Source: Pelagibacteraceae bacterium AG-390-A02 (GTDB lineage: Bacteria > Pseudomonadota > Alphaproteobacteria > Pelagibacterales > Pelagibacteraceae). Taken from it: 36,146 bases of DNA. Below the pieces are notes generated by a model, which was not told the DNA's origin, did no database searches, and saw only the letters and a program-made list of their open reading frames with translations. This document shows positions 1 to 799 of this stretch, piece by piece. Position numbers and translations under genes: made by a program. The stretch covers positions 1 to 36,146 of the forward strand of contig QCGU01000011.1 of NCBI GenBank assembly GCA_003278165.1. The letters are read 5' to 3'. Each line of letters starts with the position of its first letter. Positions within the stretch are counted from its first letter, which is position 1.

Positions 1-47
1 ATTCCACCATCTAAAATTTTTGTCGTTTTAAAAAAATCTTTATTCAT
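1..47 (-). CDS. N-terminal fragment of a homocysteine S-methyltransferase-like protein
   Basis: Only the first 15 codons and two bases of codon 16 lie in the window; the gene runs off the left edge. The translation begins MNKDFFKTTKILDGG, and the next codon starts AT, so it is Met or Ile. ILDGGM fits the N-terminal strand of homocysteine S-methyltransferase (MmuM/MetH/BHMT-type) domains. The start follows a GAGG ribosome site by five bases. The leader carries two stacked SAM-sensing-type pseudoknots, which supports a methionine-synthesis role; tandem SAM-II/SAM-V leaders are known in front of bhmT in Pelagibacter. The product call rests mostly on that context, because 15 residues are too few for a domain match. 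Confidence 0.5.
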   Translation of the reverse strand, partial: MNKDFFKTTKILDGG

Positions 48-52
48 TTCAT

Positions 53-102
53 CCTCACTTTTTTAGTGCTTAAGCGATATGCAGCTGCACAATATAGTTC
101 AA
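53..102 (-). ncRNA. SAM-V-like riboswitch overlapping the ribosome binding site
   Basis: Read on the minus strand, this leader can form an H-type pseudoknot. P1 pairs GTGC (90-87) with GCAC (69-66). P2 pairs loop bases TCGCTT (77-72) with AAGTGA (60-55), with one G-U pair, and an A-rich linker (65-61) lies between. P2 covers part of the GTGAGG Shine-Dalgarno sequence that ends five bases before the start codon, so ligand binding would block translation. This matches the SAM-V arrangement: same core logic as SAM-II, just upstream of methionine genes. It was recognised by eye, without a covariance-model score. Confidence 0.65.
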
Positions 103-120
103 CTACCTTGCTAATTTGAT

Positions 121-180
121 CTGTGGGGAGTTTCCATTTTAGCAGTTTATGCCCGCAATAGGATCAAATCGGCAAGTAGT
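121..180 (-). ncRNA. SAM-II riboswitch
   Basis: The minus-strand sequence carries the SAM-II core in order. P1 5' arm is TGCC (174-171), followed by loop GATTTGATCCTATTGC (170-155). P1 3' arm is GGCA (153-150), then TAAA, then GCTAAAATGGA (143-133). TCC (163-161) can pair with GGA (135-133) as the P2 pseudoknot. The loop and GCTAAAA tract closely follow known alphaproteobacterial SAM-II aptamers. It precedes the SAM-V-like element by about 20 nt, giving a tandem SAM sensor on one methionine gene. No U-tract terminator follows, so how the SAM-II element acts is not evident. Confidence 0.8.
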
Positions 181-208
181 CTTATATAATATTATTAAAA
201 TTTGTAAA
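181..208 (-). promoter_or_regulatory. Possible sigma70-type promoter for the riboswitch-controlled gene
   Basis: On the minus strand a TTTACA hexamer (208-203) and a TATAAG hexamer (186-181) are 16 bp apart, directly after the stop codon of the upstream oxygenase gene. Predicted initiation is near 174, at the first base of the SAM-II P1 stem. In such AT-rich DNA, promoter-like hexamers are common, and read-through from the upstream gene is also possible. Confidence 0.35.
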
Positions 209-799
209 TTATTTATTAAAAATTATTTTAGCATTGAAAGAAAACGATCTTCTTTCTTCTTCAATATTAAATGGATAGGCTGTATGCATTAAGTAATTTG
301 GAAATATTAAAAGATCACCTGTTTTTGGTATCAAATTAAAAATACTTTTAGAAAGAAAAGCTTTTTGTCCATTGATAAAATCAATTGTTCCATTGGTTTT
401 AATTTTTTTATTTTTAACATTTTTATTTTTTGTCATATATTTAGGAATTTTCAAATAACCAACTCCTGATAAGTCACCTTCATGATAATGTATAGGGTTA
501 TACTCATTTTTGTATTGACTAACGACCCACAAGTTTAAAATTTTAATTTCTTTAATTTTTTTAACATTTTCTTTCATAAGAAAAATTTTAATATTTTTTA
601 TTAATTCTTTTTCTAAATATTTTTTTATAAAATTTTTTGAAATTTGAACTTCTTTTCTAATTTGGCTTGCTAGTTTTGGACTATAATCATTCGATTTTGA
701 GAAAATTTTTGTATCAACTTCCATGTTAAGTTTTTCTAAAAATTTTCTAGAAATTTTAGATTTTCCTATTGAAGGTCCAAATGGTTTAAAATTTTTCAT
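209..799 (-). CDS. Small 2OG-Fe(II) oxygenase family protein
   Basis: A 196-residue protein whose C-terminal half looks like a double-stranded beta-helix 2-oxoglutarate/Fe(II) oxygenase of the putative 2OG-FeII_Oxy_5 type. The iron site appears as HYHEGD (H104, H106, E107) with a distal H172 in MHTAYPF. R183/R184 in the next strand are candidates for binding the 2-oxoglutarate carboxylate. The N-terminal 90 residues are lysine-rich and probably helical. There is no signal peptide, so it is likely cytoplasmic. It lies 36 bp downstream of the TauE gene on the same strand and may be cotranscribed with it; the SAM riboswitch gene follows. The substrate is unknown; relatives occur in phages and marine bacteria. 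Confidence 0.7.
   Translation of the reverse strand: MKNFKPFGPSIGKSKISRKFLEKLNMEVDTKIFSKSNDYSPKLASQIRKEVQISKNFIKKYLEKELIKNIKIFLMKENVKKIKEIKILNLWVVSQYKNEYNPIHYHEGDLSGVGYLKIPKYMTKNKNVKNKKIKTNGTIDFINGQKAFLSKSIFNLIPKTGDLLIFPNYLMHTAYPFNIEEERRSFSFNAKIIFNK

Follow-up and report, generated by a model that had tools for sequence, protein, structure and literature searches.

A predicted compact SAM-II-type pseudoknot precedes the SAM-V riboswitch of a Pelagibacter mmuM leader without an intervening terminator

The window analyzed here was the entire 36,146-nt contig QCGU01000011.1 of a draft genome of genus g1, Pelagibacter (78.8% complete, 1.08 Mb, 62 contigs). Pelagibacter is one of the most abundant marine bacteria. 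The feature under study was found on the minus strand, right where the contig begins; there, in the 5' to 3' direction, the end of a 2OG-Fe(II) oxygenase gene was followed by a 161-nt intergenic region and an ATG at 47..45, from which 15 codons could be read before the contig ended. The features of the locus are as follows:

799..209, minus strand: 2OG-Fe(II) oxygenase gene (PF13759)
191..219, minus strand: possible promoter TTAATA-17-AATAAT, which would initiate transcription just 5' of the upstream aptamer (consensus scan, 9/12)
132..176, minus strand: candidate compact SAM-II-type aptamer CUUGCCGAUUUGAUCCUAUUGCGGGCAUAAACUGCUAAAAUGGAA (R1 model, alignments, pair counts, R2 model)
174-171/153-150, minus strand: P1 of the compact element (alignments and pair counts)
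from 170, minus strand: L1 of the compact element, with UUU at 168-166 (alignments)
160-155 with 143-138, minus strand: P2 of the compact element, UAUUGC with GC-U-AAA (alignments and pair counts)
163-161 with 135-133, minus strand: P2a of the compact element, UCC with GGA (alignments)
107..131, minus strand: linker without terminator (fold, duplex test, terminator scan)
55..117, minus strand: SAM-V riboswitch aptamer (RF01826; alignment of leaders)
53..56, minus strand: Shine-Dalgarno GAGG of mmuM at the 3' edge of SAM-V (sequence; GAGG in most aligned mmuM leaders)
1..47, minus strand: 5' end of mmuM (MNKDFFKTTKILDGG...), cut by the contig end (start identical to the L217 protein; synteny with HTCC1062, L168)

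The truncated gene was assigned to mmuM (homocysteine S-methyltransferase) because of synteny with HTCC1062 and an identical start in a close relative. The same gene order was found in HTCC1062 (TauE-family protein, oxygenase and a 302-aa mmuM product, PF02574), and in genome G236 (locus L217) a near-identical leader precedes a 301-aa protein with the same first residues and a PF02574 match at E 1.2e-52. As the downstream gene, bhmT was ruled out by synteny and sequence; it belongs to the same Pfam family but is a separate member and has a leader of its own. The promoter match at 191..219 is, taken alone, no better than chance. A TauE/SafE-family (sulfite exporter) gene at 836-1582 on the minus strand adjoins the mmuM locus in the window, as it does in HTCC1062, giving the locus a sulfur-related neighborhood.

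SAM-V was the sole Rfam match within the 36-kb window (117..55, minus strand), with 59.4 bits against a gathering score of 41 for RF01826 and an E value of 2.3e-7 over the whole window. Across 54 diverse leaders, 99% of the cells in P1 and P2 of SAM-V were paired, changes on both sides occurred, and the covariation score of 0.129 was reached by 0 of 500 shuffles. Assignment to SAM-V rests on the Rfam threshold, the P1/P2 pseudoknot with covariation and the nearby ribosome site of a methionine gene. The initial annotation had placed the second of two pseudoknots over the ribosome site; GAGG (56..53) lies at the 3' edge of SAM-V, and the overlap is therefore partial. Contigs that carried the SAM-V pattern and came from named genomes, including near relatives of the window leader, belonged to Pelagibacteraceae or Pelagibacterales, and the published HTCC1062 coordinates agree with genome G026, which is also of g1. 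A search of viral contigs with a SAM-V core pattern gave no exact match. A fourth HTCC1062 SAM-V (57.6 bits; L166 664-728, minus strand) was found before osmC, the gene after bhmT.

The window SAM-V carries a C-to-G change at position 85, in the 3' arm of P1 on the minus strand, which is unique among the 54 leaders and turns the otherwise invariant pair 106-85 into G.G; it is G-C in all 53 other aligned leaders. G236 has C at the matching position, and the change could reflect either a true mutation or an error close to the contig end.

Upstream of SAM-V, with no ORF in between, lies the element at 176..132. The expectation that both riboswitch models would score above threshold held for SAM-V only: RF00521 gave 10.7 bits on 185..118 (minus strand), below its cut-off of 36, and over the window RF00521 had no match at E≤5 and RF01726 was absent. 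The Rfam threshold is an annotation cut-off and no structural definition, and it is not diagnostic for SAM-II in this lineage. The SAM-II element of metX in the same genome scored 24.5 bits with RF00521 and 32.7 with RF01726 (cut-off 44), and the HTCC1062 bhmT SAM-II, for which a KD of 1.2 uM has been reported (PMC5069961), was absent from the Rfam matches at E≤5. Since other SAM-II elements of the lineage are also missed or under-scored, the low score leaves membership in the SAM-II class possible. The SAR11 SAM-II elements tested scored under both cut-offs, so that automated annotation will miss them.

A covariance model (R1) was built from 24 long-P1 SAM-II elements of SAR11, with no element of the short type among them. 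R1 picked the compact element as the best site of the window (23.5 bits, E 1.4e-4; the next site in the 36 kb had 10.9 bits) and recovered nearly all compact elements in 57 loci. The reverse model (R2), built from 54 compact elements, gave 71.4 bits for the window element, whose sequence was part of its training set, and it retrieved SAM-II elements before metX (NCBIfam) in g9, which is a different genus of the family, and in two further families. The 23-nt core GCCGATTTGATCCTATTGCGGGC occurred once in the window, was matched with up to 3 mismatches by 0 of 100 shuffles, and recurred exactly in 112 of 210 loci. The pocket-type nucleotides UUU (L1), UAUUGC and GCUAAA were invariant in the 54 diverse leaders; pocket roles have been described for the nucleotides matching UUU, UAUU and UAAA in SAM-II/SAM-V (PMC6061858). 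The P1/L1/P2 pseudoknot was paired in 96.8% of cells, and both sides of P1 had changed in 6 cells. The variation of P1 is compensatory, e.g., with a G-C to A-U exchange in the HTCC1062 mmuM leader. Over 122 leaders the core was near-invariant, and much of the linker and upstream flank was variable. These sequence comparisons identify 176..132 as a predicted short SAM-II-type pseudoknot homologous to the SAM-II elements of the lineage, and we infer that it still binds SAM. The two SAM-type pseudoknots in series that the initial annotation had proposed in front of a methionine-synthesis gene are thus borne out as a SAM-II-type/SAM-V tandem, both on the minus strand, with mmuM as the gene. In another alphaproteobacterial family, a SAM-II-like match followed by a terminator was also seen (L277 1501-1546, minus strand), in front of a small protein whose family is unknown.

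The distribution of this arrangement was examined in 151 distinct SAM-V leaders collected with a SAM-V seed, three of which, all metY leaders, were cut by contig ends. The compact element without a terminator was present in 22 of 22 mmuM leaders and in approximately 106 metY leaders of Pelagibacter, and SAM-II followed by a terminator was present in all 12 bhmT leaders and in the metY leaders L062 and L137; since the genomes behind these leaders are related, the counts do not represent independent events. R2 matches at E≤0.01 were found in 52 of 77 g1 genomes, and all 30 R2 loci fetched from that search were followed by SAM-V and then by metY or mmuM. No R2 match occurred in 20 g1 genomes without a SAM-V match. 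Of 250 evenly sampled g1 genomes, 99 had the compact element. The compact elements of HTCC1062 (732861-732906 and 1005761-1005806) lie within the mmuM and metY intergenic regions of PMC2704228 Table 1.

In the other genera of the family, metY and bhmT leaders consisted of SAM-II, terminator and SAM-V, and the metY leaders of g3 and g6 had the compact aptamer together with a terminator. In the simplest reading, the g1 form would have arisen from a SAM-II/terminator/SAM-V ancestor through loss of the terminator. A bhmT-type tandem with no bhmT gene after it was seen in L006 (1308-1560; G000:C10:29807-30060), where the next ORF is on the opposite strand, and in L038 and L099; it is either a fossil or a free-standing RNA. 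In five bhmT leaders (L166, L160, L172, L082 and L116) the SAM-V GGAG and a CUCC downstream of it are able to form a hairpin; bhmT, which has a ribosome site of its own, starts about 65-75 nt beyond. The output stage of the bhmT leaders is different from that of metY/mmuM.

No intrinsic terminator was found between the two aptamers of the window, and the linkers of 121 leaders had a minimum free energy of about 0. The window linker likewise folded at about 0 kcal/mol; in terminator-bearing tandems, the hairpin preceding the U-run had a median of -11.7. Six metY linkers contain U-runs, and no hairpin accompanies them. In leaders of the window type the aptamers are about 25-30 nt apart. The window linker can form a 14-bp alternative helix with the upstream aptamer, 111-107 with 176-172 and 121-113 with 170-162, which was the main helix of the pseudoknot-free fold (z -2.59 for the MFE fold), and the duplex between linker and upstream aptamer had a z of -5.8 (0 of 200 shuffles). 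Its linker nucleotides 108-107 are also part of SAM-V P1, and by sharing these two nucleotides the helix could couple both aptamers in the window.

Complementarity between linker and aptamer reached p≤0.05 against shuffled linkers in 31% of metY and 48% of mmuM leaders, compared to 2.5% of the terminator-bearing tandems (n=40), so that a signal exists across leaders but is less strong than in the window. At least 6 linker/aptamer pairs were found in whole-leader folds of 96% of metY and 90% of mmuM leaders, and of 4 of 40 terminator-bearing tandems. Shuffled linkers in which the last 6 nt were kept still reached this number of pairs in 82% of metY and 54% of mmuM cases, because SAM-V P1 is itself complementary to the upstream P1, and whole-leader folding was rejected as proof of the alternative helix as too weak after this control. 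Pair counts within Pelagibacter showed no double change in the alternative helix. The compact leaders of g3 and g6 had linker complementarity made of different letters, e.g., UAGCCGAU with AUUGGCUA in L249. Support for the alternative helix is moderate.

The capacity of the linker to pair with both the upstream aptamer and SAM-V P1 favors, as we infer for the direction of the coupling and for the output of the upstream element, a strand exchange between the two aptamers. Without SAM, the upstream 5' strand (the P1 arm and L1) would pair with the linker and some of the SAM-V P1 strand, disfavoring both aptamers and leaving the gene on. When SAM is present, formation of the upstream pseudoknot would free the 5' strand, and SAM-V would close, stabilized by bound SAM in the P2 triplex and P2a. 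Since SAM-V then hides the ribosome site, as has been described for the SAM-bound aptamer (PMC6061858), no MmuM would be produced while SAM is abundant. The upstream element would thus be a shortened SAM-II aptamer that hands its output to the linker. That the mmuM leader holds two serial SAM aptamers of the SAM-II/SAM-V superfamily, in which the output of the terminator-less SAM-II is passed to the linker to give a sharper OFF switch, falls somewhat short of an even chance in our estimate. The fuller proposal for both mmuM and metY, in which SAM on the compact SAM-II frees the SAM-V P1 strand by strand exchange and SAM-V serves as its expression platform, making a cooperative translational OFF switch of two aptamer classes for one ligand, is held to be doubtful. 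The broken P1 pair of the window SAM-V speaks against the proposed switch. Coupling could also be absent, since in the bhmT tandem the linker reportedly kept SAM-II silent in vitro and synergy was not observed (PMC11508383). That silencing fits pairing between linker and aptamer but does not fit a simple sum of two sensors.

A different output of the same aptamer would be an effect on mRNA amount, in which SAM binding would leave the AU-rich linker open to RNase or Rho, and the long 5' hairpin of the SAM-free RNA would protect the message. We regard this as unlikely, and yet as a serious rival, because sulfur limitation raises mmuM and metY mRNA 6.1-fold and 7.1-fold, respectively, and SAM-V has been described as translational (PMC5069961). 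The lack of a terminator and the position of the alternative helix near the presumed 5' end also agree with it. However, reduced translation alone can lower mRNA levels, the promoter is a weak consensus only, and the RNase/Rho sites are putative. It is improbable that the upstream element is a functionless relic of a terminator-bearing SAM-II riboswitch. The terminator has been lost and SAM-II is silent in vitro in the full bhmT tandem (PMC11508383), but decay would be expected in AT-rich genomes, and the core has stayed near-invariant while linker and flank vary, with the element kept in every mmuM leader.

The initial annotation had called the leader a two-input device. If both aptamers bind SAM, it would instead have one ligand and two sensors; a real two-input device would need a changed ligand for the upstream element, e.g., SAH or another methyl-cycle compound. 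The compact elements do form a tight cluster of their own under the Rfam SAM-II thresholds, but they retain the positions that correspond to the uridines facing the sulfonium and to the nucleotides anchoring the adenine and aminoacyl parts in SAM-II/V, which makes a changed ligand very improbable. The known bhmT-type SAM-II/terminator/SAM-V riboswitch, to which the initial annotation had pointed, shares the order of the two aptamer classes and is ruled out by the sequence, given the missing terminator, the unfolded linker and mmuM as the gene.

Both metY and mmuM feed methionine synthesis in Pelagibacter, and in the accessible literature the leader of each is regarded as one SAM-V switch. Given a conserved second aptamer that lacks an intrinsic terminator, the SAM-V constructs studied so far would have missed part of the natural regulator, and such an aptamer would offer a reason for the strong changes of metY and mmuM mRNA under sulfur limitation. 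SAM-II with terminator, the compact element with terminator and the compact element alone form a natural series for studying the loss or replacement of an expression platform.

When compared to known systems, the leader resembles the published SAM-II/SAM-V tandem (PMC9481103; PMC11508383) in having a SAM-II-type aptamer 5' of SAM-V in the leader of a methionine gene. In the original 120 tandems SAM-II always stands before an intrinsic terminator (PMC9481103), whereas the window has none, a shorter P1, closely spaced aptamers and mmuM as the gene. The aptamer, genes and position at the ribosome site are those of SAM-V of metY/mmuM (PMC2704228, PMC6061858). These leaders have been described as SAM-V only, with SAM-II placed at bhmT and metX (PMC2704228 Table 1; PMC5069961), in contrast to the SAM-II-type aptamer found directly upstream in the window. 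The compact element shares with the SAM-II riboswitch (RF00521, RF01726; metX) the H-type pseudoknot and the GAUUU / UAUUGC / GCUAAA core, and its short P2a is as in translational metX-type SAM-II. Unlike that riboswitch, it has a P1 of 3-4 bp, scores far below the Rfam cut-offs, and has neither a terminator nor a gene start of its own. Relative to the accessible literature, the terminator-less pair at mmuM/metY is probably new.
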